From NCBI RefSeq assembly GCF_001887355.1, contig NZ_MPIN01000006.1:310001-374000 (forward strand): 64,000 nucleotides of DNA, given 5' to 3'. Made by a program: the position numbers and the translations under genes. The notes below the pieces were generated by a model. That model was not told where the DNA came from, made no database searches, and saw nothing but the letters and a program-made list of their open reading frames with translations. Below, piece by piece: positions 32,644 through 59,689 of the stretch. The number at the start of each line of letters is the position of its first letter. Position 1 is the first letter of the stretch. The stretch is from Cystobacter ferrugineus (GTDB lineage: Bacteria > Myxococcota > Myxococcia > Myxococcales > Myxococcaceae).

Positions 32644-32717
<74 letters not shown>

Positions 32718-35439: not shown

Positions 35440-35441
35440 GA

Positions 35442-36146
35442 TCATGACTCCTTGTCGAACCAGCAGTTCGGTTTGATACGTCCCACGAAGACAGGCTCCC
35501 ATTGCTCTTCAGCACTCCACTCGCCGTCCGGTGGTCGCTTGGTCAGTACGACACCGGCGTGGTTCACGACGAACCTGACGGCGCCGAAGCGGCGGATCGT
35601 ACGAAGAGCACGAACGAGATCTGTGTCTTGAGCGCGCGGGTACTCGGAGCTCCCTCCCTCGTCGTCCATGTTGTAGAAGTAGATCTGGCTCCGCTTGCTC
35701 AGGTTGTAGGGGAAGCCGACGTAGGGTTTCGGCCAAGAGTCGCCACACCGCAGACCTGCAGTGTCGCTCAAGTCGATGATGCGGTTGTCGTCGAAGGGAT
35801 TGTTGAAGAAGATCGGTCCATTGACTTCACCCACCAACAAGCGGCGTCCGCTAGCGTCACTGGCCGGAACGAGGACTTGGCCGAACTCGTTGATTTGGAA
35901 CGATCCACCCCCCGTGCCACCGAGCTGCCGCTTCGCAGCGGTGACCGCATCGGTCAGCTGCCGGATCGCTGGAGCATCGATGGCGGCGCATGTTCCGACG
36001 CCGTCATCGCGGTGCCAAAAAACCACGGGGCACCATCGACTGCCGCAACTCTGGATGTGGAATACCGATCGGTCGCCGGGAATTCGAGCGTAGCGCCCCT
36101 CCCAGGTCTGAGCGTGGCACGCGGTAAAGGTCAGGTTCTTGGACAT
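35442..36146 (-). CDS. second small protein related to the helicase C-terminal module
   Basis: 234 residues. Words shared with its neighbour: GGSFQINEFGQVLVPASDAS, then RCGDSWPKPYVGFPYNLSKR and AVRFVVNHAGVVLTKR. The N terminus has a Cys/His-containing segment (FTACHAQTWEGRY ... SCGSRWCPV) absent in the neighbour. Unknown function. It is 15 bases downstream of the helicase stop and 2 bases upstream of the following gene, clearly in the same operon. A role as target-binding partner of the helicase is inferred from the shared module. Confidence 0.65.
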   Translation of the reverse strand: MSKNLTFTACHAQTWEGRYARIPGDRSVFHIQSCGSRWCPVVFWHRDDGVGTCAAIDAPAIRQLTDAVTAAKRQLGGTGGGSFQINEFGQVLVPASDASGRRLLVGEVNGPIFFNNPFDDNRIIDLSDTAGLRCGDSWPKPYVGFPYNLSKRSQIYFYNMDDEGGSSEYPRAQDTDLVRALRTIRRFGAVRFVVNHAGVVLTKRPPDGEWSAEEQWEPVFVGRIKPNCWFDKES

Positions 36147-38381: not shown

Positions 38382-39979
38382 CGACCATCCTCGTTCGTGT
38401 CGCTCTCTCGTCCGAGAAGCCGTGCAAGTTTCTGGGCTTGCTCCCCGGCGCCCTCGACCTCCTGAAGGCGCTGCAGGTACCGCTCCGCGCGATCCCGATT
38501 ACCCTGGATGGCGCGAACGCGGGCCATCTGGAAGAGGGCGGTTGGCTCGAACTCGTCGAGCATCAACGCCTCGTTGAAGTACTGGCACGCGAGCTCCACC
38601 TGATTCTGCTGCAAGTAGGCCAAGCCCAGCTTTGCGCACACTAGTGCGGACGGCGGGCCCTCCGACAGAAGCTGCTTGAGCACCTCGACGGATGCCCGGA
38701 ATCGACCTGCGAGACCGAGCGCCACGCCGTGCCGGTACCGATACCAGCGCTTATCGGGCCACCGCTCAGCCAACCACGCGAACCCCTCCGCGGCGGGCTC
38801 GTACTTCTTCAGTTGGACATCAAGCTCGGCCATGCCCTCGACGGGATCTCTAAGTTCGTGATCCTGGGCGCCGTTGCTCCTGAGCCAACTGATCGCTCGC
38901 TGGTAAACAGCCCGCGCGGCATCGAGCCGACCGACCCGCTTGGCGGCTTGCGCATAGACGAGCAGGACCTGCGGCGAGGTCGACATGCGCCGCATGGCCT
39001 TCTCCAGCTGCGCGATGGCGTCGTCGATCTGACCCTTCTCCATGAGCTCGCGCGCCAGCTGCGCAAGTTCGTCGACGGGGCGCTGGATCACCGGCTCGAC
39101 CGCAACCGGAGCATTGATCGGCGTCGACGCCTTCCCCTCCAGATCGGAGCGCAGCTGATCGATCGCGGCAAGGAGTGCTGCGCCGGTCGGGTAGCGTCTG
39201 TCTGGCCGCTTATCGAGGCACTTCCAGACGACCGCGTCGAGTGCTGGCGGGACGGAAGGATTCAACTCGATGGGGCGCGGAAACGTCGCCAGGTTGATGG
39301 CTTCAGAGATTGTTCGGCGGGGGAACCGTCCAGTCAGGAATCGATAGGCGATCACTCCGAAGGCGTAGATGTCACTCGAGACAAAACGCTGACCGCGGCC
39401 GTCTGTGCTCCGTCCCATGACCTCAGGCGCGAGATATGGCCACGCCCCCACGCCATTGGTCTCAACAAACCGATCCTCGATGGTCCGACTCTGGCCGAAA
39501 TCAACGAGACGGACGTTGTCACCCTCAAGCAGGACGTTATCGAGTTTCAGGTCGCCATGAACGCATGGAGGGTCCTGGACGTGCAGATAGGCGAGCGCAT
39601 CCGCGATGTCGCGGAGCCACTTCAGGACCTCGTCCAGGGAGACCGGATGAGGAGAGTCGTCGTCTCCCACTCGCTGGAGCAGCGTCTTACCCGGCACGTA
39701 CTCCATCCACATCACGACCAAACCATCGATGCGGGATGCGCCGAAGACCTGGACCAAGCGGGCATGCTTGAAGGCGCTCGCAATCGTCGCCTCCTCAAGC
39801 AGCTTCCGAGTCGCGCGGTCCTGGTGGTGGTAGATCTTCACCGCTACCTGCGGCGGAAGCATCTCGTCGCCGATGACGTCTGCAAGCCAGACGTCCCCGT
39901 AGCTGCCGCGCCCTAGAATCTCGACCATGCGGAACTTCCCGCCAAGGACGACGCCAGCTGCGAGATCGGCCAGTCTCAT
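38378..39979 (-). CDS. Ser/Thr protein kinase with C-terminal TPR repeats
   Basis: 533 residues. Kinase domain 1-275: glycine loop GRGSYGDVW (23-31), Lys48 (VAVKIY), catalytic loop HGDLKLDN with Asp143 and Asn148 (HGD in place of HRD), DFG at 160-162 and APE in LAPEVMG. All catalytic residues are present, so it should be active. Residues about 305-520 are TPR-like helical pairs (AELMEKGQIDDAIAQLEKAM region, CAKLGLAYLQQNQVELACQY). No membrane helix, unlike PknB-type sensors, so it is a cytosolic kinase. It overlaps both neighbours by 4 bases. Kinases occur in several phage-defence systems, where they inactivate host or phage proteins. Confidence 0.92.
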   Translation of the reverse strand: MRLADLAAGVVLGGKFRMVEILGRGSYGDVWLADVIGDEMLPPQVAVKIYHHQDRATRKLLEEATIASAFKHARLVQVFGASRIDGLVVMWMEYVPGKTLLQRVGDDDSPHPVSLDEVLKWLRDIADALAYLHVQDPPCVHGDLKLDNVLLEGDNVRLVDFGQSRTIEDRFVETNGVGAWPYLAPEVMGRSTDGRGQRFVSSDIYAFGVIAYRFLTGRFPRRTISEAINLATFPRPIELNPSVPPALDAVVWKCLDKRPDRRYPTGAALLAAIDQLRSDLEGKASTPINAPVAVEPVIQRPVDELAQLARELMEKGQIDDAIAQLEKAMRRMSTSPQVLLVYAQAAKRVGRLDAARAVYQRAISWLRSNGAQDHELRDPVEGMAELDVQLKKYEPAAEGFAWLAERWPDKRWYRYRHGVALGLAGRFRASVEVLKQLLSEGPPSALVCAKLGLAYLQQNQVELACQYFNEALMLDEFEPTALFQMARVRAIQGNRDRAERYLQRLQEVEGAGEQAQKLARLLGRESDTNEDGR

Positions 39980-40554
39980 GCCTGCACCGCCTGGAGACGA
40001 CGCCGCTCCTCGGGGCCGCCGAACACGGCGGTGACGAGTACGAACCTCGACTCAGTTCCAAGGCCCGGAACCACCAGTCCATCGCTCGTCCGGAAGCCGT
40101 CATGCGAAACGGCGCGGACTTCGTCCAGCCCGCGGAGGTCGGTTCCTGCAATGGCCCAAGCCATCAGGAGCAGCACGCGCGGTTCCTCGCCGAGTTCGTG
40201 GTGAGTTCTGAGGAGATTCCGCGCCTTCCCGATAAGATTCCGCTGTCCAGGCTCGAATCGCTCGAACTCGCCAAGCAGGGCTACCGCTGGCGTCGGACGG
40301 GACCACCAAGCCACATCCGGCCTGACCGAGTAGCCAGTGCCACCTAGCGATACCCGAACCGGATACTCGGACATCGCCCAGCAGCCCACCTTCCGCCCGA
40401 GCGCAGAGAGGTAGTTGCAGCCAAGGGAATGGATCGTGACGCTGAAGTCCTCGACGCCCCAATCCGTGAGCATGGGGAAGTCGCTCTTGGCGAATGCCAA
40501 GGTCTCGAACTCGGCGCGAAGGGCGCGCTCGATTTCGCGGACGTTCGTTGTCAC
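39976..40554 (-). CDS. hypothetical protein, possible PD-(D/E)xK-type fold
   Basis: 192 residues from a GTG at 40554 (preceded by GGGAGG and overlapping the HerA stop as GTGA). No clear family. Residues 78-100 read VRPDVAWWSRPTPAVALLGEFERF: an Asp (80) after an RP pair, then a strand ending in Glu96-Phe-Glu98, followed by Lys110 and Asn113 in a helix. This spacing is like the PD...(D/E)x(K/E) core of restriction-type nucleases, with the last residue changed. If right, it is the nuclease that partners HerA; if wrong, it is an orphan. It overlaps the kinase gene by 4 bases. Confidence 0.5.
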   Translation of the reverse strand: MTTNVREIERALRAEFETLAFAKSDFPMLTDWGVEDFSVTIHSLGCNYLSALGRKVGCWAMSEYPVRVSLGGTGYSVRPDVAWWSRPTPAVALLGEFERFEPGQRNLIGKARNLLRTHHELGEEPRVLLLMAWAIAGTDLRGLDEVRAVSHDGFRTSDGLVVPGLGTESRFVLVTAVFGGPEERRRLQAVQA

Positions 40555-42251
40555 GGCAGCCTCCCAGGCCCCCACTCCTCGAGGATCTTCGGCGATTCTC
40601 CACCGTGCTTTAGCGCCTTGTACCCGACGCGCACCAGGAGCGGTGCCGGAATGGAGCGACCGGAGATCAGCGCCTCTCCGGTCGACAGCGCGGGAAGCTC
40701 ATCGACGTCGGCCTTGCTGAGCTGCTCGGTCGACTTGACGATGAACTTCTGATCGTCCGGGTTCTTGATCCGCATCGTGATCAGCGTGTTGCACTGGCTG
40801 GTGACGTCAGGATCGAGCTTCGAGGGACGCTGACTCACGATGGCGAATCCAACGCCAAACTTGCGGCCCTCGGCGGCGATCCTCTTGATGATGTTGCGGC
40901 TCAGTGACTGCCCGCCGGCGGGGGCAAAATTGTGGCCTTCCTCATAGACGATGAAGCAGGGGCGGAGCGGATCCGTCTTGCTTGAGGCTGCATCCATTAT
41001 TTCCGCTGACATCAGCGCGACGATGATCTGCCTCGCGTCGTCCGAGAGGCCCTGGAGGTCGACGATCACCAAGCGCCCAAGCCCGCGGCCACGACGCCCA
41101 ATGAGGTCACGGATGTCCGTGGCCTGCTTACATCCTGCTCTGTAGAAGGACTTCGCCTCGGCGAGAACAGCACGGAGTCGCATGCCGGCGATGGCAGCGC
41201 TCCGGGCCCCGAGGGCCTTCTGCTCCTCCGGCGTGAGGTTCAGGTCCGGGTCGTTTCGGACGTCGTCCAAGCGCCGACTCAGGAGGTCCAAGAGCGTCTG
41301 GACATCCCGCGGCTTGTTTGGCTCGTCCTTCTCCCACTTCCGCAGAGCGACATCGAGCACGCGCATTTGCGGCTCGGTGATGCCCGGTAGGATACCGCCG
41401 AGCGCGTCCAGGTCGTAGTTGTCGAACTGGAGGGCGAGACGGACGTTGGCGCTCGAGTACTTCAGGTCGAAGCTCTCGTCCTGGGGCGTGCAGACGATGA
41501 TTCCGGCGTTCGAGTTCTGCAGCTTGCGGAAGTTCTCCAGGATCTTGGGCAGCACCGGCCGATCGCGCGGGTCCTGGACCGTCTCAATGTCGGGGTTCGT
41601 GCGTATCTGGCCGCCCTCGAAGGCACGGCCGTACTCGCCATGCGGGTCGAAGACGACCACCGTTCCGTTCATCTGCGCGACGAGCCGCTCAATGATCCGA
41701 CCAACGGTGTAGGACTTTCCCGAGCCGGTCATCGCGAGCACGGCGAGGTGCTCGGTCGCCAGCGTGTTGACGTCGAGGTAGATTGGCACCGTGCCCTCGC
41801 CGACCTCGTAGCCGACGAGGTTGCCGATGTGGATCGACGAGTCCTCGCTAAACTCGTAGAACCGGCGGAGGAAGTCGTAGTCCACCCCGTACACCTTCGA
41901 CCCGGGGTCAAGCGGTCGACGAGGCATTCGGATTTCACCGGACCGTGGATCCTTGAACCCAACGAGCTCGACAATCGCGTAGAGGGTCTCGCCGCTTACC
42001 ATCGACCCCGGCAGAACGTTGACCTCGCCGATGCCCTCACCAAGCGCCTCCGAGAAAAGAACATTAGTTCTTGAGAGGCTGACGATGCGCCCCATGCAAT
42101 CGGTCTCGGGATCGCCTTTGCGCTCCACATGCGGAATGCGCACGAACTCGCCGCGCCGGGCGGCAAAGGACCCAAGAAGTGCGACATGCAACTCCGTGGG
42201 GTTCCCTGTGTTCCCGATTAGTTTGCCGAGATGGTCCGTTGGTGTGCGCAT
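40551..42251 (-). CDS. HerA/FtsK-type DNA-translocating ATPase
   Basis: 566 residues from MRTPTDHL (GGAGAA upstream); a longer frame runs back across the HsdS gap and is rejected. N-terminal HAS-barrel-like domain (about 10-150, beta-rich), then Walker A AMTGSGKSYTVG (173-184), a long insert, Walker B FIVYEEGHNFAP (433-444, Glu437-Glu438) and an SQRPSKLDPDVTSQCNTLI motif with the arginine and sensor residues. This is the archaeo-eubacterial HerA family, hexameric DNA pumps that work with a nuclease (NurA, Sir2 or others). In bacteria such ATPases are often part of anti-phage systems. It lies between the HsdS gene and the small protein at 39976-40554. Confidence 0.9.
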   Translation of the reverse strand: MRTPTDHLGKLIGNTGNPTELHVALLGSFAARRGEFVRIPHVERKGDPETDCMGRIVSLSRTNVLFSEALGEGIGEVNVLPGSMVSGETLYAIVELVGFKDPRSGEIRMPRRPLDPGSKVYGVDYDFLRRFYEFSEDSSIHIGNLVGYEVGEGTVPIYLDVNTLATEHLAVLAMTGSGKSYTVGRIIERLVAQMNGTVVVFDPHGEYGRAFEGGQIRTNPDIETVQDPRDRPVLPKILENFRKLQNSNAGIIVCTPQDESFDLKYSSANVRLALQFDNYDLDALGGILPGITEPQMRVLDVALRKWEKDEPNKPRDVQTLLDLLSRRLDDVRNDPDLNLTPEEQKALGARSAAIAGMRLRAVLAEAKSFYRAGCKQATDIRDLIGRRGRGLGRLVIVDLQGLSDDARQIIVALMSAEIMDAASSKTDPLRPCFIVYEEGHNFAPAGGQSLSRNIIKRIAAEGRKFGVGFAIVSQRPSKLDPDVTSQCNTLITMRIKNPDDQKFIVKSTEQLSKADVDELPALSTGEALISGRSIPAPLLVRVGYKALKHGGESPKILEEWGPGRLP

Positions 42252-42282
42252 TCTTGAGTTCTCCAATCGATGCGACGCATCG

Positions 42283-43725
42283 CTAGCCGTTCGCCTTGAG
42301 CCACCGGTCAATCTCTTCGCCGCGAGACAAAAGCGCTTTAGTATCAAGGGTTCCGGATATCAGCTCATCGACGTTCTTCTTCGCCTCCAGCACCAATGAG
42401 CTAGCTTCATGGGCGTAGGAGTTGGCACGCAGCAAGACCTCGCCCATTTCCTGAACCACTTCACTCCCGGGATCAGGGATCCAGACATTGAGTGGTACAG
42501 CTCGCTCGATCGCCGGGTAGATGCCCCCAGAGTTCCATCTCATGAGCTGATGGGTAGCAATGTCGTGCACGAGGCAGGCTCGGACATAAGCGCCAGCAGC
42601 TCCTGTCTTTGCTCGCAAGACACAGAACCCCGAGGACGCGACAGCTTGTTCCTGTTCGATATGCACTTGAGCTATCGCCTTCAGATTGGGTCTGACGGTC
42701 GATACAAGGATGTCCCCAGGGCCAACGAGGTACTTTGCTCGTGATGGCGCTTGGTCGCAGCGAATGATCTCCGGCACGGCTTCACCGGTAATCGGATTGA
42801 GGCCACCGATTTCGTAATAGGGGAACGTCGGTTGTCCCCATGCCTCAATGTCCGCCCCCCTAGTAACATGCTGGCACAGCGACCTGACTCTCACGAGGCC
42901 AGGGCGATTCCGGCACGCATAGTCGAGATCCATAAATGACAAGCGATGGAACCACGAATCGAGGCGACTGGTGCTTATCTCGCTTGCTGAGATCCAACCT
43001 GGGGGGTCGCTCTCCGGAACTGCGAAGTCGCCGAACAGACGGTCGATTTCTGCGGCGGCTTTCACCCGAATCTGCTTTGCGAGTTCGCAGAGCCGTTGCG
43101 CCTTCCGCACCTTCCGTCCGATACCGGCCTGCACGTCTAGGCTCGGCAAGAGTACATGAAACGCGGCGACCTCGGGAGTGATGATGGTCCCTTGCACCGC
43201 GCCGGCTTGACGATGCTCTGTTTGAACTCGGCCAGCATCCGAGGAGAGCCATGCCACCAGATAACCAGGGTCGACGCGCTTGGTATTCGGGGCAATACGG
43301 AAGACGTGGCGACTGGCGACGGCAGGCAGCACCTCTCTCGAAACGAGCGCGCAGTTTCCAAGCGTTCCGTCTTTGGTGAAGACAACATCCCCCTCCCGGA
43401 GTTGATGGCGAGGCAGGGCGGCGAATCCCTCAATGCTGATTCGCTTCCAGGAGGAGCCGTCAATCAGGACGTCGCCTACGTTGTTCGCCTCGACGACCTT
43501 TACGCCGTCTTCGGCTTCACAAAACTCCATGTGCTTCGATGACTCATAGCCCGTCACATGGGCTATGTGGGTGACGATGTCCTTCACGCGAGCTACCTGG
43601 TGCTTGCTGGTTCGCAAGCGGGCCAAGAGCGACACGTGAGCGGGCCCGTAGAAGCGAGCATCGATCCGGCTAGGTTCCAGCAGGTCGACTGAGGTCCAGC
43701 TCGCAAACGTCGCATCGGGTCTCAT
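42283..43725 (-). CDS. hsdS: type I restriction-modification specificity subunit (HsdS)
   Basis: 480 residues with two target-recognition halves, the full-length type I form. First half: about 1-225, with FTKDGTLGNCALV and AFHVLLPSLDVQAGI followed by a long helix (KVRKAQRLCELAKQIRVKAA). Second half: about 235-480, with KYLVGPGDILVSTVRP and PLNVWIPDPGSEVVQEMGEV and a second helix. The two halves read out a split DNA site for the methylase encoded at 52626-54518. There is no HsdR in the window, so the pair is expected to mark self DNA for another effector. Confidence 0.88.
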   Translation of the reverse strand: MRPDATFASWTSVDLLEPSRIDARFYGPAHVSLLARLRTSKHQVARVKDIVTHIAHVTGYESSKHMEFCEAEDGVKVVEANNVGDVLIDGSSWKRISIEGFAALPRHQLREGDVVFTKDGTLGNCALVSREVLPAVASRHVFRIAPNTKRVDPGYLVAWLSSDAGRVQTEHRQAGAVQGTIITPEVAAFHVLLPSLDVQAGIGRKVRKAQRLCELAKQIRVKAAAEIDRLFGDFAVPESDPPGWISASEISTSRLDSWFHRLSFMDLDYACRNRPGLVRVRSLCQHVTRGADIEAWGQPTFPYYEIGGLNPITGEAVPEIIRCDQAPSRAKYLVGPGDILVSTVRPNLKAIAQVHIEQEQAVASSGFCVLRAKTGAAGAYVRACLVHDIATHQLMRWNSGGIYPAIERAVPLNVWIPDPGSEVVQEMGEVLLRANSYAHEASSLVLEAKKNVDELISGTLDTKALLSRGEEIDRWLKANG

Positions 43726-43759: not shown

Positions 43760-44914
43760 TCATTCTTCCTCCCAACCTGCGAGCCAAGCCTGATCGACCT
43801 GTTCCTCGCGCATCGCACGCAGCGTCTCGCGTTTGTAGAATTCGAGCAGGCCGGGCTTCTTCACTACCTCGACGCCTTGCCGCGCGTACCACAGGGGCAA
43901 GGGCAGCGACCTCCGGTGATCGAAGTAGGTGAGGGCGACCAAGTCCGCGGCAAGGCGATCAAGAGCATCCGGGCCCCCACGCTCATGCCAGATCGCCGCA
44001 GAACCCAGCGTCGCCACCTGGACGGCTTGTCCACGCAGTCCCGTCAGGTAGTGGAAGCCGATGCTCCCCTTGCGGATTAGCGCCTGAGGGAACGCGGCCT
44101 TGTCCAGAAGGTCCTGATCACGATCGAAGGCGGCCGTCCGATGCTCGGGAAGGAGGATGCCCTGCAAGACCCGGTCGATGCCGACCGAGAGCACCTGGAC
44201 CCATTCCGTTTTAATGAGCCGCTCCACCTCGCCGTCGATCGGGTCCGGCGACACCTCCTGCCCTTTCTTCTCGAGGAGTCGCAAGAGGCTGCCGAAGCGC
44301 GCGCGGACAAGGGAGACGATTCGAGGTCCCTTGGGGTCAAACGGATAGCAGCGGTCGATGTGGCGAGACCAGAAGCTCTCAAGCCGGTCCTTCAGCGAAC
44401 CGACTTCGGATTTGAGGAGGCTGTCCGTCTCCGAGTCATCGAGAGCCTGCGCGTACTCCGCTTTCCCGAGTACGAGCGGCACATCGAGGAGTACAAGGTC
44501 GGGAAGTGGATCGGTGGCGAACACCTCATCGAGCAGGTCGTATACGAGGCCATAAGTCTTCCAGCCAAGCCTGCGCTCGTACTCAAGGAGGCTCATATCC
44601 CCCACATCAAGTCGGCTCTGCTGCCCGGAATGGCGGATGTCAGCGCCGGAGGCCACGAGCTCGTGGGCCAGAGCACCGATGCCATACAGGAGGCCGCTGA
44701 ATGCGTGGATCTTACGATGAGCCGCCGCGATTCCGACGGCGCGGCGCTTGATGTTGCGATCGATAACGAGCTTCCGAACGAGTCCCCCCTCCTTGAGACG
44801 AGGTGCGATCCGGTCGATGGCTCGAAGCTGTCGGGCGAGCTTTCCAACAGTCCCAAAAAGCCCCAGCTGGATCTGGGCTGTCATCTCCTGGGCGAGCGGG
44901 TTGTTCTCCTTCAT
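43760..44914 (-). CDS. hypothetical protein, possibly NurA-like
   Basis: 384 residues from MKENNP, whose ATG overlaps the previous stop by 4 bases. No firm family. Residues 59-83 (AVGIAAAHRKIHAFSGLLYG) and 139-150 (DLVLLDVPLVLG) lie where NurA nucleases have their VDGS and LDG-type strands. The second Asp is there (Asp144), but the first motif has Ala instead of Asp, so if related it may be inactive or have a shifted site. The C-terminal third has ERLIKTEWVQVLSV and a Tyr/Trp-rich end. NurA is the usual HerA partner and the HerA gene is two genes away, which is the main reason to suggest it. Confidence 0.4.
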   Translation of the reverse strand: MKENNPLAQEMTAQIQLGLFGTVGKLARQLRAIDRIAPRLKEGGLVRKLVIDRNIKRRAVGIAAAHRKIHAFSGLLYGIGALAHELVASGADIRHSGQQSRLDVGDMSLLEYERRLGWKTYGLVYDLLDEVFATDPLPDLVLLDVPLVLGKAEYAQALDDSETDSLLKSEVGSLKDRLESFWSRHIDRCYPFDPKGPRIVSLVRARFGSLLRLLEKKGQEVSPDPIDGEVERLIKTEWVQVLSVGIDRVLQGILLPEHRTAAFDRDQDLLDKAAFPQALIRKGSIGFHYLTGLRGQAVQVATLGSAAIWHERGGPDALDRLAADLVALTYFDHRRSLPLPLWYARQGVEVVKKPGLLEFYKRETLRAMREEQVDQAWLAGWEEE

Positions 44915-45777
44915 GGTTTCTCCGTCGCGGCCATTGCTTGCTCGACCCGCCGCAGGTGGGCTCCCCAACCGGAGGCCTTGAGCGCAGCTGCTATCTCAGG
45001 AGTCGAAGTCTCGGGCAACCTGTTGAGCACGCGCTGCAGTTCGACGGGCTTGAGTGCAATTCCGAGGTGCGCCTTGGCGCTACTGGCGAGATCAGCGGCC
45101 TTGTTCCCCTTGCAGGCGATCAGCGCGAGAAGTAGCGCCGCACCTACTGGCCCCTCATCACGAAGATAAGTTGCGAGGTCAGGTGCCGGCTCGGTAGGGC
45201 GCGTTTCCGGCTTCTTCGGGTGGTCGGAAGGACCTGTGAGCTTCTCTGCCTCCATGAGGATTCTCATGAGCAGCCGACGTTGTGCCTCGACCTGCACCCC
45301 GGACGGCCTGCCGGCCACTGACGCCGTGCAGATAACGATCGGCCCCGCGGTCATGTGCGGACGGAAGCAGAGAAGAACCGTGCCCACTCCGGTCGCAACT
45401 GCCCACCTGCCGACATGCAGCACGGTACGGAGCGAAGAGACTCCAGAAACGTCGTACTGCTGACCGTCTTCCCAGGCGACTCCATCGAAATTGCTCGCGC
45501 GTACTTCGATCGAGGAGGACGCTCCGACCAGTGGCGCGATGTCGCCGGCCCTCCATCGCGGTACAAGCAGCGATACGCGACCGGCCGCACTTCTGCGCCG
45601 CAGCATCTCTCTGCTGCGGTCGGGGTTGTCAGATACCCATAAGCCCGAGAGGATGAGGGGCTGCATGACGTCTGCTGCGGCAGAGTCGGCAATCCAGTCG
45701 ACCTGGTCCGCGAGTTCTTCAAGCTGCGCGAGGTCGCGACCGAACTGCTGGTTCTGGAGTGCTGCGCATCGCACCAT
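44911..45777 (-). CDS. hypothetical protein of the island operon
   Basis: 288 residues, not recognised. The N-terminal half is a beta/alpha region that reads like a phospholipase-D-type or receptor-like domain (SGLWVSDNPDRSREMLRRR, a block that could recognise a surface); the C-terminal part from about 205 is a small helical domain (GAALLLALIACKGNKAADLA). No membrane helix. Two bases separate it from the giant ATPase gene and it overlaps the next gene by 4 bases. A structural or adapter role beside the ATPase is possible. Confidence 0.55.
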   Translation of the reverse strand: MVRCAALQNQQFGRDLAQLEELADQVDWIADSAAADVMQPLILSGLWVSDNPDRSREMLRRRSAAGRVSLLVPRWRAGDIAPLVGASSSIEVRASNFDGVAWEDGQQYDVSGVSSLRTVLHVGRWAVATGVGTVLLCFRPHMTAGPIVICTASVAGRPSGVQVEAQRRLLMRILMEAEKLTGPSDHPKKPETRPTEPAPDLATYLRDEGPVGAALLLALIACKGNKAADLASSAKAHLGIALKPVELQRVLNRLPETSTPEIAAALKASGWGAHLRRVEQAMAATEKP

Positions 45778-49946: not shown

Positions 49947-51028
49947 AGCGGATGCCCTCCAGAAACGACGCGAATCTTGATGAGCTGCTTGCGTGGGTCG
50001 GAGTACAGGCCGATGCCGTGACGTCGCTGGCCGTAGTCTTCGGCTTCAATTCGGACCAGCCCCGCCGCCTCAAGTTTGGCGATCTCCCGGTCCGGATTCT
50101 CAACCCCGCGGCGGTGGAGTTCGTCCCTGAGCTCAGAGGCGATTACGTAGCCCGTGTCAGACCGGAGCGTCTCGATTACGGAGCCGAGGAGCTTCGGGAG
50201 TGATTCGACCTGCGGCGTACGTCGCTCGATGCCGAAATCCGCTTCGAGTTCCGCGCCGAGCTTGCCCGCTATAACATCGTGATCGGCCCAGCACTGGCCA
50301 CCATTAGCACGAAGCGCGCCGAGGTGGAGCAGCACCTCGAAAGCTGCGCGAAGCGCGAGACCGATATCGTGCAGCGAGAAGTCGTCGCCCAGCAGTCCGA
50401 CGTACTGACAGTCTGTGGCTCCCCGCAGGAGAGCGTGGCCACGCCAGTCCCCGAGCGCCCACCAAGCACGCTCATTGATCGCTGCACGAAGCGAGCTGCC
50501 ATGGCTTTTCGTTGAGAAGGGCGCGACAGGCGCCATGCCAGGAGCTTCAATTCGTGCCTTCTGGAGGCTGCCGCTGAACCAGGAGTCCCCTGCGAAGGTC
50601 AGCCCTGCTCCTGGTTGAGCCAGCAACCAGAAGATGACCCGAGTCCGCGGCTCGCGCGTTATCAGCAGCTTGGCGAGCTGCCCGACCCAAGTGCCTTCGC
50701 TCTTGTTGGCGGCGTAGGTATCCGCCAAGCGTCTGCCCGCCCCGCTGACTCTATAGGATCCATCCTCGCGCTCGAGCAAACCCACGCCGCGAAGGATGAG
50801 CTTCCCATTGCTCTCCTCGAGGCCCGGCAAGTTGCGGGTGATCTTCTCGGCCGCAGCATGCCTGTCGTCGGTCATGCGCTTCGTGGCGAACTGCCGCCCG
50901 AAGTCGGTCGGCGACTTCAAGGATGTGTCTGGCGGCACATCGGCGAGAAAGGCTGGCCACGTCTGAATTCGGGTCGCGTCGTACCAAAGCACCAGCTGCG
51001 TCAGCGCGACCCGTACCGGCTCACCCAT
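49943..51028 (-). CDS. hypothetical protein with winged-helix-like ends
   Basis: 361 residues from MGEPVRV (AGGAGG seven bases upstream). Family not recognised. The region GKLILRGVGLLEREDGSYRV (near 75-95) and the C terminus (IASELRDELHRRGVENPDRE ... LEAAGLVRIEAEDYG) look like winged helix-turn-helix units, so DNA or partner binding is likely. Phage-defence genes often have a 'DUF4007'-like protein of this size, helix-rich with wHTH ends, beside the methylase; this could be one. It overlaps both neighbours. Confidence 0.5.
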   Translation of the reverse strand: MGEPVRVALTQLVLWYDATRIQTWPAFLADVPPDTSLKSPTDFGRQFATKRMTDDRHAAAEKITRNLPGLEESNGKLILRGVGLLEREDGSYRVSGAGRRLADTYAANKSEGTWVGQLAKLLITREPRTRVIFWLLAQPGAGLTFAGDSWFSGSLQKARIEAPGMAPVAPFSTKSHGSSLRAAINERAWWALGDWRGHALLRGATDCQYVGLLGDDFSLHDIGLALRAAFEVLLHLGALRANGGQCWADHDVIAGKLGAELEADFGIERRTPQVESLPKLLGSVIETLRSDTGYVIASELRDELHRRGVENPDREIAKLEAAGLVRIEAEDYGQRRHGIGLYSDPRKQLIKIRVVSGGHPL

Positions 51029-52619
51029 GTTGCACCTCCTGCGTCTGGGCGGCATTGCGTCTGCCCGTCCACATCAGATGCAGTTCGGAATGCAGGCGCT
51101 CGCGGAACTGGCGCCCGCGACGGATGACCGTGGTCATCATGCCACCGCCATGAAGTCGGTCGAGAACATGTGGAGCGATGGACCAACGGTCGTACAGCCC
51201 AACCACGAGTTCGGCAGATCGCATGATTCGGAGGGCTCTGGACCAGGGGCCGAGATCGGTTCCGCGGTATGCGTAGGCGATGCTCCGAATCCCTACCGAC
51301 TTCGCGAGTTCCCCGAACACGGAGTCGAGCGTTCCCAGATCATAGGAGTCTTGTCGGAGCGAGGCGCCTTCCGCACTGGTCACTCCCCTCGGGCGATAGA
51401 AGACGTGCGTCGCGCCCTCAATGTCGTCGACGCGCCGGTCGGTAGGAGGAGCCAACACCAGCGTTTCTTCTCCTAGTTCACGGTCGAGAGCCTCGACAAG
51501 CAGCAACTGAAGAACAAAGCCAAAGAGCAGGTGGTTCGCGAGCGCCAGAAGGGCCTCGTCGACTTCGGGCGACTCACGACGGGCGCGGGCCATGCCGCGC
51601 AGGCTCGCCGCCACCGGCAACTGGCCCCAGGGTGGAGCCTCGGCTCGCTGTTCTGGCCACGTCCTAAGCTGGTCGTCGACGGAGAGGAATCCGACGGCAT
51701 CCTGGCCAGACGACTCTGCCCATTCCCAGAATCTTGCGGTCGCTTTCGCGTGCTGTGCTGAATCCCAGGCACAGCTGCGAAGGGCGTGCTCTGGGAGCGC
51801 GAATGCGAACGAGCGTGACCCTTGGAGTTCAAGATCTGGCTCCGTCTTCGCCGAAATCGAGACGGCACCTACCAGAGCTGCCGTCACCTGCGCGCCGACG
51901 GCATAGAGTCGTAGCGGCACGCCGGCTCTCAGGAGCACGTCTATCGTGCCCTGTTGGCTCACCGTGGTGCCCACGCCTTCGCCTCGTCGAGCCGCCTCGA
52001 CGAGTGAACGCAGGAGTGTCTCTGCTTTCTGATCGAGCTGAAGTGCATCCAGGCTGAAGTGGACCGGATGTTCGAGGAGCGGCACGTACTGGTCCTGAAG
52101 CAAGGGGAACAGGGTTGCGGTGTTGCCTCCGGCTCCCCAGAGCTTCTGATCCCACGCCGCGAATGTCTTGCCGTCGCCACCGGCGACCAGTTCCTCGGCA
52201 TCCTGCCATACCGAAGCATCGAACATGCGGCATCGTTGACCGCGCCAGCGCTCCAGCCACTCAAGAAGCTGCACGAACCGTGGAGCGAACGGAAGGAGCG
52301 GCCCCTGGATGAGTTCCTCGAATCGCTTCCATCGCTCAGCGCTGCCAATGGTCGAGAGAACCGACGCGAGCGATAGATCCAGATGAGCGCGGTAGCCGGG
52401 GTCTCGAATGGCGGTCCGTCGAAGAACATCAAGGCGGTCACGAGCCGGCGCGACCGCTTCGAGCCAAACGATGGACGGCAACGTCCAGGCGGTTGGGTCT
52501 TCGACCGCGGCTCCAACGTCGCGCAGCCACGAGATATGCTCGCTCGCCGGCCGGCCCCCCCCATAGGTGGCCAGTGTCTCAAGTGTCGGAGCCAGTTGTT
52601 CGATGTCCGCCGGACGCAT
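51021..52619 (-). CDS. hypothetical protein of the island operon
   Basis: 532 residues, not recognised. The N-terminal 320 residues are helix-rich, with many Trp and Leu (WRGQRCRMFDASVWQDAEEL). The C-terminal 150 residues are alpha/beta and read like a phospholipase-D or Sir2-type end (FGFVLQLLLVEALDRELGEE, then VVGLYDRWSIAPHVLDRLHG), but no catalytic pair is clear. It starts six bases after hsdM and overlaps the next gene by 8 bases. Confidence 0.5.
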   Translation of the reverse strand: MRPADIEQLAPTLETLATYGGGRPASEHISWLRDVGAAVEDPTAWTLPSIVWLEAVAPARDRLDVLRRTAIRDPGYRAHLDLSLASVLSTIGSAERWKRFEELIQGPLLPFAPRFVQLLEWLERWRGQRCRMFDASVWQDAEELVAGGDGKTFAAWDQKLWGAGGNTATLFPLLQDQYVPLLEHPVHFSLDALQLDQKAETLLRSLVEAARRGEGVGTTVSQQGTIDVLLRAGVPLRLYAVGAQVTAALVGAVSISAKTEPDLELQGSRSFAFALPEHALRSCAWDSAQHAKATARFWEWAESSGQDAVGFLSVDDQLRTWPEQRAEAPPWGQLPVAASLRGMARARRESPEVDEALLALANHLLFGFVLQLLLVEALDRELGEETLVLAPPTDRRVDDIEGATHVFYRPRGVTSAEGASLRQDSYDLGTLDSVFGELAKSVGIRSIAYAYRGTDLGPWSRALRIMRSAELVVGLYDRWSIAPHVLDRLHGGGMMTTVIRRGRQFRERLHSELHLMWTGRRNAAQTQEVQHG

Positions 52620-54521: not shown

Positions 54522-54902
54522 CTATTGGTTCCTCTTGATCATCGCGTTCGGAAGGAGGACGAGCCGACCGTTTGAAGACGCCAGAACATCGCGCAGTTCC
54601 TCCTCCGTTGGGAATTCCGACGCCGGAAGGCTGGATAGCGCCGCGGCCAACCGGAAGATCTTCTTGCCGGACGTGTCGGCATAGTTCTCGATAGCTGCCA
54701 GAAGTTGCGCCGCCCGTCCTTTCACCATGAGCTTCCAGAGATCGCCCTCTTTGCTGACCTCAGGCGAGAGGAGCAGCGTTGCCTCCATCGCAGCTAGGCT
54801 GCTCGGAGTAGCCTGCACGTCAACGCGCTCGGCAATGGCTCCGGTCGTGAGCCCACCGGGAGTCACCGAGAGGGCAGACAGGAGGCGCTCGTGAAGCATC
54901 AT
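54522..54902 (-). CDS. small helical protein, possible winged helix
   Basis: 126 residues from MMLHERLL; the ATG at 54902 overlaps the previous stop (ATGA). Residues 5-55 (LLSALSVTPGGLTTGAIAER ... ATLLLSPEVSKEG) look like a winged helix with a wing near 55-65 (GDLWKLMVKG). The rest is helical. No known family. It lies between the response regulator and the methylase. Confidence 0.55.
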   Translation of the reverse strand: MMLHERLLSALSVTPGGLTTGAIAERVDVQATPSSLAAMEATLLLSPEVSKEGDLWKLMVKGRAAQLLAAIENYADTSGKKIFRLAAALSSLPASEFPTEEELRDVLASSNGRLVLLPNAMIKRNQ

Positions 54903-55906
54903 CGCTGCCCTCTTCTCTGGGCCTTCGCCCAAGGCAGGTAGACCTTCTCATGCCAAGGCAGGTACCAATCGAGGAGGTCCTTCACCGTGAGTTCGATAAG
55001 CTTGCCAACTGCTTCTCCGACCTCGACCGAGCGCAGAACCTCCGGAGGGATCTCCCAGCCTTGTATTTGCTGACTCCCACAGCGGTAGGGCTGCTCTTCG
55101 ATGTGCTCGAAGACGTTGCGGTAGCCATTGATGGCGTAAAGGTGGTGCAGCATTGCGCCGCGCCACAAGAACAAGCCCCACCTGCCTGGCGCCGTAATCG
55201 CAGAGGCCTTCACGCGGCGCTTTCTGTTGGCGTCCTCGTCGAATCGCGACTCGATGCACTCCTTGATGAGGCGATGCAGATCATCCGCATATCTCTCGCA
55301 GGACCCCAGCCTACCGTTGTGGTGGTCGACTTCGTTCTGGACGAGCTTGATCGCTAGCGCCTTGGCGCTCTTGAGCCTCTCCTTAACGGGCTTACCCGGG
55401 TCAGTGACGGAGTCATAGAGGTCGAGGATCTCGAGCTCAAGTCGCCGGATCAACGAGCGCCGCGGGTCCTTCTTCAGCCGTCGGACGCTGGCCTTGAGCA
55501 TCCGCGGCAGCTCGGCCTTCTGCGCGATGCCGACAAGAGTGTCCTTGTAGAAGTCGAGGAAGAGTTGGTCCTGCACTCCATCCTGGAGATCCTCTCCGGA
55601 CACGACGATGACGCGTATGTCGTTGCCGGGGCGTCGATTCAGGTCGGTGTGGATGATATCAAGAATCGCCTTACCGTGGCTCTTCTCCGGACGGCCGTCG
55701 CGGGCATCCCGAGGGATGTTCAAGTCGAGGAACATAACATCCACATTTGCCGCGTGTTCCTCGAGGAGCGCCTTCGCGTCCTGATAGGTTTCGGCGGCGC
55801 CGAGCTTGTTGTCGGGGAGGAAGCCGACGTCCGCAAGCTGAGAGAGCACCTCGTTTCGATCCTCGGCCTTGTCTTCAACGATCACGAACTTGAGGGTCTC
55901 AAGCAT
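54899..55906 (-). CDS. response regulator with novel C-terminal domain
   Basis: 335 residues. Receiver domain 1-145: Glu11/Asp12 (VIVEDKAEDR), phospho-acceptor Asp61 (MFLDLNIPRD), Ser in VIVVSGED. The receiver has an insert (RDGRPEKSHGKAILDIIHTD) and its last helix is long. The C-terminal 190 residues are helix-rich with conserved-looking aromatic and Cys residues (LGSCERYADDLHRLIKECIE; GRWGLFLWRGAMLHHLYAIN) and are not one of the usual HTH, GGDEF or AAA+ outputs. The gene overlaps that for the kinase fusion by 8 bases, so the two form a cognate pair. The output is probably protein-protein. Confidence 0.82.
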   Translation of the reverse strand: MLETLKFVIVEDKAEDRNEVLSQLADVGFLPDNKLGAAETYQDAKALLEEHAANVDVMFLDLNIPRDARDGRPEKSHGKAILDIIHTDLNRRPGNDIRVIVVSGEDLQDGVQDQLFLDFYKDTLVGIAQKAELPRMLKASVRRLKKDPRRSLIRRLELEILDLYDSVTDPGKPVKERLKSAKALAIKLVQNEVDHHNGRLGSCERYADDLHRLIKECIESRFDEDANRKRRVKASAITAPGRWGLFLWRGAMLHHLYAINGYRNVFEHIEEQPYRCGSQQIQGWEIPPEVLRSVEVGEAVGKLIELTVKDLLDWYLPWHEKVYLPWAKAQRRGQR

Positions 55907-58109
55907 CGGGTTCCTCCCACATTACGTCCAGTGTGAAAAGGGGCAGCGAAGCGCCGAAGGTGACGCCCGCCAGCCGCGCCCCATTGTCGTCGCGGTTTTC
56001 GAGCAGCTGACACGATCCGCCATGCGTGCGGAAGGTCTCACGCACAATCGCCAGGCCGAGACCGGAGCCTCGTCCCTGCTTCGCGTATGTACTCGCGTCC
56101 TCGTCGAATGGGTTCGAGATTAGCTGACGGTCGACGGGCAATGCGTTGTCGCTGATTGTGATCTTCGCGCTACCGTCGTCAGCCCAGACTCGAATTAGGA
56201 TCGTGGGCTGGGCGATCTCCTGCTCCTTCAACTCGCGGCAGGCATTGTTGAGGACTTCGGAGAAGGCCTCGTTCAGGACGTCGGCGTTGCCCAACGCGAA
56301 GACCGAGGGATTCTCCGCATCGATCCGCAAGCCGTGGACCTGCTTTGCGCACTCCGTCGCCTTAACGCGAAGGAGTTCGGCCAAGTCGCACTTCTGCTTC
56401 TGGAGGTCCCCCTGCGCGCGCCTGAGCTGGCGGATCTGGTAGGTCAGTCTGCGGATGTCGCCGATAGCCTTGGTAAGCTCGCCGAGCCGCGTTGCGAAAG
56501 TGAACTGCTGGATGTCCTCACCGCGCATGGCTGCGCGTGCCTTGGCCTTCGCCTCGCTGGGCACTAAGCGCGATGCGATCTCTGGCGCACTCTTAAGGAA
56601 AGCGTCCAGATCCTCGGCGGCATTTGTCGCTCGGCCGATGGGACCATTCAGCTGATGCATCACCCAGGAGAGCCGTCGGAGAGATTCGCGTCGAGCGGCG
56701 TCATCGATCACATCTGAGGGCTGGCCAAGCACCTCTCCGAGCCGCTCACCGTACCCGCTGAGTGCTGCACGAGCGTCAGCGGGATCTTCAAGCTGGTCAG
56801 GGCCGAACAGGACGTAGGCGCCGGCCACTGCGCCGTGGCGGTGAACCTTGAGAGCGACCGCTGGACGAAAGACGTACCGCAGCCACTCGAAGAGGTGGTC
56901 GGCGAACTCCTCATCCTTCTCCGCGGCGGTTCCTGCAGTAGGGAGCTCGGCTGCACCCAACCGGCCGCGCTGGAGGGCGAACCAACTGCTGGCCAGCAAC
57001 TGCTTGGCCGCCGCCTCATCCCAGTCGTCGTCCCGGTGAACCTCGATGGCTTGCCGGAAGAAATCGAAACCAGGGAGGATCCGAGCGCGGAGGTCCGCCG
57101 CAGCTGTGGGTGTGATGCGCGCGGTCATCCGCGCCAGAAGGTGAGACGGCAGCGCCGCCGAAGTACCGAGAGCGTTGAAGATGGTGAACTTCTCCGCGGA
57201 ACTCGGTTCCCAGTACCAGTCACGCCAATCGCCGTTAACGTGGCGGTCTTCCTGTGGCTGCAGCTGCACGCGTTGGCGACTAACAGAGTCGTCGCGGATT
57301 CCGCGCAACGGGCGTACGACGAACAGATCAGAGGAGTGATCGGTCGTCGATGCTTCGACGAAGAAGCCACTCTGCGCGTCGACGATGCGCTGCTCGAGCA
57401 AGTAGCTCTCGAACTGTTCGAGTCGTTCCTCGAAGGTTGCCGCGGTCAGGACGAACGGCTTCACCCCCTTCTTTGCCGACACGAGTAGGGCATGTGCCCG
57501 CTCGAAGGCAGCCTTGTTCCGGTGTCGCTCGCGTACAACCTCCGACAGCCGCCGCTTCTCCTCGGCAGTCGGGACTCGCACCTGAATATCGAGAAGGGAG
57601 CTGACTTCGATCCGAGGAAGCGTGGAGCCGATAACCGAACGACGCAACTGAAGCTGGACCAAGTTGGAGGCGAGTTCGTACGCGAGCCAGTCAATCGATT
57701 CGGACCCACGTGGGCGCAGAACGATCATTCCCAGCTGCGTCAGGCCCCCTCCCGGAAACAACGTTTCGTCCCAATGAGTGAGAGGGACGCTGGCACTGAA
57801 GTGGCTTGCGATGACGATGGCCTCGGGGGGCAGCGGAACCAGAGGTCCAGGAGGCGGCTCCTCTCCCAGTTCTTCAACCTCAAGGCCTCCGCGGCGGAGG
57901 CGAACCAGCCACCGACCAGTCAGGTCCGCCTTGTCATCCGACCTCGCAGGCTTCGTGAGCTGAACCAACGTCCCGAGCGGCGCGTATTGTTGGTGGTCTT
58001 GGAGACGGCGATCCAACTCTCGGTACTCGGGCGCGTGAAAGGCCGGGTGCCAGTTCCGTTCGAAATCGACTGGGTCTATCCAGGTTATGTGGGGCACCAG
58101 ATCGTCCAA
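55899..58109 (-). CDS. fusion of a type I specificity-like half domain to a GHKL histidine kinase
   Basis: 736 residues from a TTG (58109) with GAGGAG six bases upstream. Residues 1-215 end in RIEVSSLLDIQVRVPTAEEK followed by a helix, the pattern that closes a target-recognition half in HsdS. Residues about 225-480 are a mixed sensor region. Residues about 480-730 are a histidine kinase: WVMHQLNGPIGRA (candidate His), N-box FSEVLNNACREL, G1-like ISDNALPVD and G2 GRGSGLGLAIVRE. N and G2 are intact, so ATP should bind. I know of no characterised protein with this join. The likely role is a DNA-reading sensor that signals to the response regulator encoded next. First gene of the sigma54-driven operon. 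Confidence 0.75.
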   Translation of the reverse strand: MDDLVPHITWIDPVDFERNWHPAFHAPEYRELDRRLQDHQQYAPLGTLVQLTKPARSDDKADLTGRWLVRLRRGGLEVEELGEEPPPGPLVPLPPEAIVIASHFSASVPLTHWDETLFPGGGLTQLGMIVLRPRGSESIDWLAYELASNLVQLQLRRSVIGSTLPRIEVSSLLDIQVRVPTAEEKRRLSEVVRERHRNKAAFERAHALLVSAKKGVKPFVLTAATFEERLEQFESYLLEQRIVDAQSGFFVEASTTDHSSDLFVVRPLRGIRDDSVSRQRVQLQPQEDRHVNGDWRDWYWEPSSAEKFTIFNALGTSAALPSHLLARMTARITPTAAADLRARILPGFDFFRQAIEVHRDDDWDEAAAKQLLASSWFALQRGRLGAAELPTAGTAAEKDEEFADHLFEWLRYVFRPAVALKVHRHGAVAGAYVLFGPDQLEDPADARAALSGYGERLGEVLGQPSDVIDDAARRESLRRLSWVMHQLNGPIGRATNAAEDLDAFLKSAPEIASRLVPSEAKAKARAAMRGEDIQQFTFATRLGELTKAIGDIRRLTYQIRQLRRAQGDLQKQKCDLAELLRVKATECAKQVHGLRIDAENPSVFALGNADVLNEAFSEVLNNACRELKEQEIAQPTILIRVWADDGSAKITISDNALPVDRQLISNPFDEDASTYAKQGRGSGLGLAIVRETFRTHGGSCQLLENRDDNGARLAGVTFGASLPLFTLDVMWEEPDA

Positions 58110-58167: not shown

Positions 58168-58183
58168 TTCAACAGCCGTGCCA
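58168..58183 (-). promoter_or_regulatory. sigma54-type promoter for the island operon
   Basis: On the minus strand TGGCACG-GCTG-TTGAA, with the -24 element perfect and the -12 one base off the TTGCW consensus. It starts immediately after the activator's stop codon and lies 59 bases before the TTG start of the kinase fusion. A second, better copy of the same -24 word is found at 59804-59819. Confidence 0.6.
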
Positions 58184-59689
58184 TCACGACTCGACGCCGT
58201 ACCGCTGGAGCCAGTTGCTCAGCGTTTGGTAACTCGGAAGACCGACGAGCTGCGCCGCCTGGGTCTTGTTCCCGTGGGCTTGGTCGAGGGCTCGACGTAG
58301 GTAGTGGCGCGCTACGGAAGCCAGTAATTCCGGTAGGTTCAGCCCATCGCCGAGCGGCCGGTTCAGAATGTCGGAGGATCGCTCGTGTCCCACCGGAAGA
58401 AGTGCTTCGCGAACGTCCTCGCTACGAATGGTGTCACCGTCCGACCAGATTGCCGCTCGCCTGAGCGTGTTGACCAGCTCCCGAATGTTCCCGGGCCACG
58501 AGTGCGAGAGCAAAAGATTTCTTGCGCCAACAGAAAGGTTCTTGCGCTTGTAGCCGGGTTCTGCAGCACTCTCTCGGTTGATCTGATCCAGTAGGTGGTC
58601 GATTAACAGGTTCAGATCACCCGGGCGTTCTCGAAGGGGCGGCAGATGCAAAACCGCCACCGCCAAGCGATAAAAGAGATCCTCCCTGAACCGCCCTTCC
58701 GCGATCTCGCGGGCCAGCGTGCGATTCGTAGCCGCGATGATGCGAACATCCACCCTCAGAGGCTTGGTAGCTCCCACACGGACTAGTTCCCCCTCCTGAA
58801 GGACGCGCAGGAGTTTGACCTGCGCGGGACCAGGCAGTTCTCCAACCTCGTCGAGGAATAAGGTGCCGCCATGAGCCGCCTCGAACATGCCTTGTTGCTG
58901 CTTAGTGGCACCAGTAAAGGCGCCCTTCTCGTACCCGAACAACTGCGACTCCACAAGATCGCTTGGAATCGCTCCGCAGTTCACCGCGATGAACTCCTTA
59001 TCGCGACGCGTACTGGAGCGATGGATCGCGCGCGCCAAGAGTTCCTTCCCAGTTCCCGATTCGCCTTCGAGCAGCACGGGAACCGATCGAGGGGCAGCAC
59101 GGCGCGCCTTCGCTACGACCCGCTTCATCACATGACTTTGGTGGATGATGCTGGTGAACTCGGGTGATTCAGGCGGAAGCCCGGCGCTGAGTCTCCCGAG
59201 ATCCTCGTCGGGACGCCGGAGCAGATCGGGAATGAAGTCGGCGAAGATGTCGAAAGGCACTGAGGCCGTGCGGACACCATGGTCCCTGGACGACTCGATC
59301 AGTTCTGCTGGGAAGCGCGTCTTGCCGAGGAGGATCCAGACAGCCGCCATGGCTGGAGTGCCCGGGCTCAGGTGGAAGGCGAGCGCAACATCGCGGGGAC
59401 GTTCGCCAAGGGCACGCTGCACTCCACGCACTGCGGCCTCATAAATCTCTCCGAACTCCGTCGGGCCGCTGAGCCGCTCGTGGACGACCTCGATCCGCGT
59501 CTTCGTCCTCGTTCGAAGCCACTTCACGTAGGGCGTGATGACCCGCTCCTCGTAGTCCGACAGGACGAAGACCTCGTCGAACGCACGAGCATCGAGCGCC
59601 TGTGCAATAGGGCCAGCGCCCACCACTTCGCTTTCGGTGGGCGCCCGAAGGTCGGTCTTGCCGACCCAGGCTACGAGGACCTTACGCAC
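58184..59689 (-). CDS. RtcR-like sigma54 activator with CARF-like sensor domain
   Basis: 501 residues from a GTG. Residues 1-165 are a CARF-like domain as in RtcR (FHLSPGTPAMAAVWILLGKT at 105-124 aligns with the RtcR sensor; VLVAWVGKTDL at the start). Residues 180-420 are the AAA+ domain: Walker A GESGTGKE (209-216), GAFTGA loop for sigma54 contact (256-261), Walker B LFLDE (277-281). The end has a Fis-type HTH (NKTQAAQLVGLPSYQTLSNW). CARF domains bind cyclic or linear oligoadenylate-like nucleotides, and RtcR answers to RNA damage. It should switch on two sigma54 promoters, one 3' of itself and one divergent. Confidence 0.9.
   Translation of the reverse strand: MRKVLVAWVGKTDLRAPTESEVVGAGPIAQALDARAFDEVFVLSDYEERVITPYVKWLRTRTKTRIEVVHERLSGPTEFGEIYEAAVRGVQRALGERPRDVALAFHLSPGTPAMAAVWILLGKTRFPAELIESSRDHGVRTASVPFDIFADFIPDLLRRPDEDLGRLSAGLPPESPEFTSIIHQSHVMKRVVAKARRAAPRSVPVLLEGESGTGKELLARAIHRSSTRRDKEFIAVNCGAIPSDLVESQLFGYEKGAFTGATKQQQGMFEAAHGGTLFLDEVGELPGPAQVKLLRVLQEGELVRVGATKPLRVDVRIIAATNRTLAREIAEGRFREDLFYRLAVAVLHLPPLRERPGDLNLLIDHLLDQINRESAAEPGYKRKNLSVGARNLLLSHSWPGNIRELVNTLRRAAIWSDGDTIRSEDVREALLPVGHERSSDILNRPLGDGLNLPELLASVARHYLRRALDQAHGNKTQAAQLVGLPSYQTLSNWLQRYGVES

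Follow-up and report, generated by a model that had tools for sequence, protein, structure and literature searches.

A half type I specificity subunit as the predicted input domain of a histidine kinase in a probable restriction-type gene cluster of Cystobacter ferrugineus

We describe here a protein that sequence comparison strongly supports as a soluble sensor histidine kinase with half of a type I specificity (S) subunit as its input domain. It is encoded in a 64,000-nt stretch of the large genome of Cystobacter ferrugineus (Myxococcota; assembly GCF_001887355.1, contig NZ_MPIN01000006.1, positions 310,001 to 374,000, forward strand), which we call the window; coordinates without a locus prefix are window positions. 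The protein joins a target recognition domain (TRD) to a histidine kinase (HK) and is referred to as TRD-HK. A preliminary description of this DNA had proposed a half-S domain fused to a GHKL histidine kinase at 55899-58109, and this was borne out: the open reading frame (ORF) is exactly that one, its N-terminal part matches HsdS with a probability of 97-98% in profile-profile comparison, and the fusion is present in four genomes, the window's own and three metagenome-assembled genomes (MAGs), here identified by their loci L041 (Desulfobacteraceae), L042 (Acidobacteriaceae) and L043. The ORF has a TTG start with a GAGGAG-type ribosome site upstream, and its parts are as follows.

55899-58109 (-): TRD-HK, the TRD-histidine kinase fusion, 736 aa
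57420-58109 (-): residues 1-230, half S subunit (TRD and start of the next helix); the local alignment with HsdS spans residues 10-198
56700-57404 (-): residues 236-470, middle domain with no convincing family match
56655-56657 (-): His485, the H-box histidine, invariant in four homologues
55941-56309 (-): residues 601-723, GHKL catalytic ATPase domain (HATPase_c)

PADLOC profiles of type I S subunits matched residues 122-207 of TRD-HK (best E-value 1.9e-7), and in the L043 homologue the matches lay across residues 60-228 (best E-value 1.6e-5). The top two PDB matches of a profile made from three TRD-HK homologues were the HsdS proteins 5ybb and 3okg (E-value 0.002), covering profile positions 131-217 only. 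Profile-profile comparison (hhalign) of residues 1-235 with 41 HsdS proteins from related loci gave 97.0%, with window residues 10-198 aligned. Taken by HsdS half, the comparison gave 97.4% for the N-terminal and 95.9% for the C-terminal half, and with four TRD-HK homologues the values were 97.9% overall and 98.1% and 97.3% for the halves. Four unrelated families of the cluster scored at most 0.4% as controls, and ten column shuffles and one reversed alignment at most 0.2%. Since the match to HsdS is far above these controls, it is well supported that the N-terminus corresponds to a single TRD plus the beginning of the helix after it, i.e. to half a type I S subunit. Both halves of HsdS align with it; unlike HsdS, it has one TRD, with kinase domains replacing the second half. 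Comparison of the middle domain (roughly residues 236-470) with the TRD alignment returned 14-16%, 1.6% or 96% depending on the run, and these scores were disregarded because the cut pieces share ends. The AlphaFold model of the kinase from three sequences had a mean predicted local distance difference test (pLDDT) score of 42, with residues 1-219 under 50.

At the other end of the protein, Pfam identified HATPase_c on residues 608-712 (E-value 2.2e-12), and the N, G1 and G2 boxes of a GHKL ATPase are present. The N and G2 boxes had previously been described as intact, in agreement with N622, G679, G681 and G683 being invariant in all four homologues; His485, D654 and N655 are invariant as well. 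The H-box reads HQLNGP in the window, HQINGP in L102 (a second contig of the L041 genome), HRLNHP in L043 and HTLARV in L042, and the AlphaFold model places His485 in a helix of low confidence. No transmembrane segment was indicated in the three homologues tested, the top 19-residue hydropathy being 1.27-1.35.

The kinase ORF overlaps the ORF of a response regulator by 8 bases. Such a partner gene had been reported in the preliminary description, and its receiver residues are intact.

54899-55906 (-): response regulator, with a receiver (E11/D12, D61, S103, K130) and a C-terminal domain
55103-55120 (-): RNxxxH motif, R263-H268, HEPN-like, in the C-terminal domain of the regulator

E11, D12, D61, S103 and K130 are invariant in three regulator homologues. 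The receiver, the only reliable part of the AlphaFold model, superposes on CheY3 with a Z score of 15.5 and a root mean square deviation of 2.3 over 124 residues; the fold-comparison list covers this part only, and Pfam sees the receiver at no better than an E-value of 0.007. The nearest PADLOC match of the regulator, PDC-M60C (E-value 6.5e-6), is likewise confined to the receiver, and no DNA-binding domain was recognised in the protein. In the C-terminal domain R263, N264 and H268 are invariant in 3/3 regulators; the RNxxxH motif that they form has a polar residue after the arginine, fits the HEPN pattern Rx4-6H and comes after a predicted helix (242-259, in a model under pLDDT 50). In HEPN RNases, as set out in an excerpt of PMC3710099, N, D or H follows the arginine of such a motif, which is placed where helix 3 ends. 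We give the C-terminal domain about an even chance of being HEPN.

Kinase and regulator belong to a cluster of 14 proteins, all encoded on the (-) strand from the activator gene at its head down to position 36162. The genes abut or overlap, and the sole gap noted in the run below the kinase gene, of 571 bases, separates HerA from the Ser/Thr kinase. The other features of the cluster are listed here.

58184-59689 (-): sigma54 activator with CARF, AAA and helix-turn-helix (HTH) domains, RtcR/PspF2 type, a bacterial enhancer-binding protein, at the cluster head (PADLOC RtcR_PspF2--CARF_AAA_HTH, E-value 3e-204; Sigma54_activat, E-value 4e-71)
58169-58183 (-): sigma54 -24/-12-like site with one mismatch, directly before the kinase gene
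54522-54932 (-): small protein, 136 aa, with homologues before the methyltransferase in L041, L042 and L043
52626-54518 (-): type I-like adenine methyltransferase (MTase), HsdM type
51021-52619 (-): 532-aa protein without assigned function, also in L041, L042 and L043
49943-51055 (-): 370-aa protein without assigned function, also in L041, L042 and L043
45780-49946 (-): large ATPase-like protein, 1388 aa, with a P-loop-like GGWGVGKS seen by eye and no family match
44911-45777 (-): 288-aa protein without assigned function, also in L041, L042 and L043
43760-44968 (-): 402-aa protein without assigned function, a homologue of which precedes HerA in many sister loci
42283-43725 (-): separate HsdS-type S subunit, 480 aa (PADLOC Specificity_I, E-value 8e-27; mad5, E-value 3e-24)
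40551-42347 (-): HerA translocase
38378-39979 (-): Ser/Thr kinase with TPR repeats, mad6-like
36162-38381 (-): superfamily-2 helicase, PbeA/Dnd-restriction-like

With its MTase, HsdS, ATPase-like protein, HerA, Ser/Thr kinase and helicase the cluster is of the restriction type; it is probably inducible and likely to be an anti-virus gene cluster.

An alignment of the MTase was scanned against one genome per species (84,980 species) and yielded 49 loci. In three of these, L041, L042 and L043, the MTase is 57-72% identical to that of the window. The gene order in L042 and L043 is activator, TRD-HK, regulator, small protein, MTase, 532-aa, 370-aa, large ATPase-like, 288-aa and 402-aa proteins and HsdS. 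L041 stops just before the gene of the small protein; TRD-HK was found in the same genome on contig L102, behind the same type of activator, and this contig stops 147 bases past the kinase gene. The genomes with a close MTase thus contain both activator and TRD-HK in 4/4 cases and the regulator in 3/4. By tblastn the activator was found only in L042 and L043 among 53 loci, and later also in L102.

The full-length kinase was dropped as a query since it matched 184 of the 195 genomes of the window's phylum, the listed matches away from its own locus being to the kinase part only. With residues 1-480 a single one of these genomes, the window's own, was found, and the regulator and its C-terminal domain were each detected in 1/195. 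A regulator profile searched in 396 genomes of the phylum of L042 matched over its full length in the L042 genome only, with five others matching in the receiver only, and an N-terminal kinase profile searched in 297 genomes of the phylum of L041 found that genome only; outside the four genomes TRD-HK and regulator are thus rare, although these genome searches score a limited number of candidates per genome and may miss distant relatives. Kinase residues 1-600 gave no matches in genome and viral scans, nor did the kinase and regulator alignments in viral scans. Plasmids searched by tblastn with the kinase, regulator, large ATPase-like, 532-aa and 402-aa proteins gave no matches.

Most of the remaining loci are sister clusters with an MTase 38-45% identical to that of the window (34% in L083) and a HerA 55-62% identical, and, given sufficient sequence, the large ATPase-like protein, a 402-aa-like protein and HerA are present in most of them. 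Sister clusters such as L045, L051, L067 and that of G131, a genome of the same family as the window's, share the backbone of MTase, HsdS, large ATPase-like protein, 402-aa-like protein and HerA, and differ in that the module of activator, TRD-HK and regulator was not found in them. In many of them a divergent S-like protein precedes the MTase (e.g. L039:12341-13756, +), in addition to the normal HsdS that follows it. This second S-like protein, which G131 also has, mostly carries two TRD-like stretches. An MTase was identified by profile in 46 of the 49 loci (L087-L089, without a profile match, were left out), and 43 of them have at least 2.5 kb of sequence upstream of the MTase, L041, L058 and L062 having too little. 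In these 43 loci the upstream region holds the second S-like protein in 22, TRD-HK in two (L042 and L043), both in none and neither in 19; the count for the second S-like protein is somewhat circular, its profile being built from 24 ORFs found by the HsdS profile. The TRD-HK module thus occupies the place that the second S-like protein has in other loci. By sequence, the TRD of TRD-HK lies nearer to HsdS (profile-profile probability 95.9-98.1%) than to the second S-like protein (17-70%, by alignment used), and may therefore derive from HsdS; descent from the second S-like protein has position alone in its favour. The preliminary description, whose anatomy of half-S domain, kinase and regulator stands, was silent on His485, on the HEPN-like motif of the partner and its want of a recognised DNA-binding domain, on the separate HsdS (42283-43725) and on the second S-like protein of about half of the related loci.

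Some further observations concern the surroundings of these clusters. A serine recombinase-like gene, recognised by eye, lies directly upstream of the G131 sister cluster (L039:10320-11870, +), and its adjacency suggests that the sister cluster may be mobile. Four IMG/VR contigs of viral class (L090-L093) contain parts of sister clusters; they are perhaps prophages or misclassified genomic islands. In the window a tRNA-Arg(ccg) gene (32643-32717, -) lies about 3.4 kb past the helicase end of the cluster and is a possible integration site; no integrase was recognised by eye among the ORFs between it and the helicase. Two adjacent ORFs of 249 and 234 aa beyond the helicase (34753-36146, -) both show, by eye, a repeated F-x-[IV]-N-[EH] motif. 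The 402-aa protein (43760-44968, -) may, as a guess by eye, be a NurA-like partner nuclease of HerA (40551-42347); it matched no Pfam, PADLOC or NCBIfam model.

The sigma54-like site lies between the activator and the kinase gene on the coding strand, and a site as good occurs in 0.2% of equal-length stretches of the window. In L102 the consensus is exact and at a very similar distance, 53 bases before the start codon against 58 in the window (1.1% of the stretches of the L102 locus); an exact consensus is present in 4 of 102 loci. The site of L042 is weaker (3.4% of stretches). Two of the four genomes, and perhaps a third, have a sigma54-type site ahead of the kinase gene. L042 also has an exact consensus pointing away from the activator toward a divergent gene (L042:4686-4700, -); genes to that side may thus be under the control of the activator too. 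According to an excerpt of PMC4012209, RtcR-like CARF activators that are unlinked to rtc are often associated with restriction-modification systems.

The kinase and regulator pair resembles Detocs, which an excerpt of PMC11728103 presents as a histidine kinase/regulator defence module of DtcA (kinase), DtcB (phosphate buffer) and DtcC (response regulator). As in Detocs, a histidine kinase gene stands beside a gene whose product has a receiver followed by another, C-terminal domain. The sensors of Detocs are TPR-like and DtcC carries an effector domain, whereas here the sensor is a half-S/TRD unit, the C-terminal domain of the regulator had no match among known effectors, and the two genes lie within a methyltransferase cluster. 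Pfam revealed no second, DtcB-like receiver among the 14 cluster proteins, in a search that gave the known receiver itself only an E-value of 0.007.

The rest of the cluster shows distant relatives of components of MADS (methylation-associated defence system), namely MAD2 (MTase), MAD5 (S subunit), MAD6 (kinase) and PADLOC mad8 (HerA-like), and the L043 TRD-HK weakly matches the MAD5 model. The NCBIfam scores were 131 bits for MAD2 against an equivalog cut-off of 720, 91 against 400 for MAD5 and 129 against 460 for MAD6; because these cut-offs were missed by far, membership in MADS was rejected and the cluster was not filed as such. The regulator, the large ATPase-like protein and the 532-, 370-, 288- and 402-aa proteins had no MADS match, nor had the activator among the matches listed. 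A HerA translocase together with a large ATPase is also found in BREX-related and other HerA/FtsK capture systems (excerpts of PMC12839542 and PMC10853773). Pfam recognised no PglZ, DUF4007 or TGT in the 14 cluster proteins, and a BREX-related capture system was rejected for want of PglZ.

The reading that joins these parts, to which we give slightly less than an even chance, is that an inducible HerA cluster, distantly related to MADS, has gained a two-component module with a TRD sensor, in the manner of Detocs; DNA sensing, phosphotransfer and an RNase output are steps that we infer. HsdS brings two TRDs together, as do truncated S subunits when they dimerise, and since histidine kinases are dimers, two half-S units would be paired in TRD-HK like a pseudo-S subunit. 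The paired TRDs would read DNA target sites, either by themselves or when docked on the MTase of the cluster, and a foreign-looking or unmodified target would lead to autophosphorylation at His485. The phosphate would then pass to Asp61 of the overlapping response regulator, the C-terminal domain of which would be the output, perhaps the cutting of RNA by an HEPN-type RNase as a final defence. The CARF-type activator would turn the operon on via sigma54, and the two-component alarm would form a second layer on a methylation-guided system. A more specific version, possible and in our view doubtful, makes the S subunit a signalling receptor: the TRD pair would read methylation, and unmodified DNA would set off abortive RNA cleavage by a receiver-HEPN RNase.

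Several observations weigh against the joint reading. The TRD parts of three homologues are just 27-29% alike, the L042 TRD-HK had no PADLOC S-profile match, and Pfam gave no S-subunit match in the three TRD-HK homologues tested, as was also the case for the cluster's own HsdS at the threshold used. The mutual exclusion of TRD-HK and the second S-like protein amounts to two loci and the window. The H-box of L042 lacks the usual proline, and no regulator was found in the L041 genome, its expected place there coinciding with a contig break. On the output side, the C-terminal 185 residues of the regulator are helical in a low-confidence model (pLDDT under 50) and had no relevant match among Pfam, PADLOC or PDB sequences. 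In alignments of the window, L042 and L043 for eleven cluster proteins, an invariant R-x4-6-H occurred in three (twice in the regulator, and in the MTase and the 532-aa protein), and in two of the eleven when N, D or H was required after the arginine; because the pattern recurs in this way, RNxxxH alone argues only weakly for HEPN. Over the whole window four sigma54-like sites were found and 4.2 were expected by chance, so that the argument lies in the place of the site and not in the number, and L043 has no convincing site before its kinase gene (15% of stretches).

It is also conceivable, and rather unlikely, that the half-S part is a dock or bait, which binds the MTase or the DNA mimics used by phage against restriction, the kinase reporting assembly of the machine or an attack on it. 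The HsdS match extends into the start of the helix after the TRD, and in type I enzymes this helix contacts the M subunit; moreover, the kinase gene lies near that of the MTase, and target recognition is already provided for by the complete HsdS of the cluster. Phage anti-restriction DNA mimics normally bind HsdM/HsdS complexes. However, the whole TRD has been kept in TRD-HK and not the helix alone, which fits a dock less well.

A purely regulatory phosphorelay, in which the regulator would switch another protein of the cluster (the ATPase-like protein, the activator or the Ser/Thr kinase) and no toxic effector would be involved, we consider improbable to a similar degree. The weak HEPN assignment and the many possible targets in the cluster, with a sigma54 activator at its head, speak for such a relay; yet RNxxxH is invariant in all three regulators and stands just after a helix, predicted with low confidence, as in the HEPN proteins of the PMC3710099 excerpt.

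Clamp-type GHKL ATPases such as MutL and Hsp90 exist, and the GHKL part could similarly be a nucleotide-driven clamp of a DNA-bound complex that works without phosphotransfer. Pfam indeed detects the ATPase part only and no HisKA in TRD-HK, a result that also counts against the joint reading; but His485 is invariant in an H-box-like setting and the adjoining receiver has intact phosphorylation residues, making a clamp very unlikely. That the gene is decayed, or the fusion an artefact of assembly or annotation, is practically dismissed, as four separate assemblies share the same open-frame fusion.

No description of an S-subunit/kinase fusion was found in searches of the open-licence PMC literature. 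Two-component signalling in defence is known, and to our knowledge its triggers are mostly unknown. The sensor of this kinase can be recognised as a DNA-reading domain, and its candidate ligands form a defined class: DNA with or without methylation, or the MTase of the cluster. The trigger can therefore be tested directly. If the proposed working is true, an S subunit has been reused as a receptor, linking restriction-modification to signalling; in the more specific version, the discrimination between self and non-self DNA would be coupled directly to abortive RNA cleavage. TRD-HK may thus be a new way of telling foreign from self DNA through a phosphate relay.

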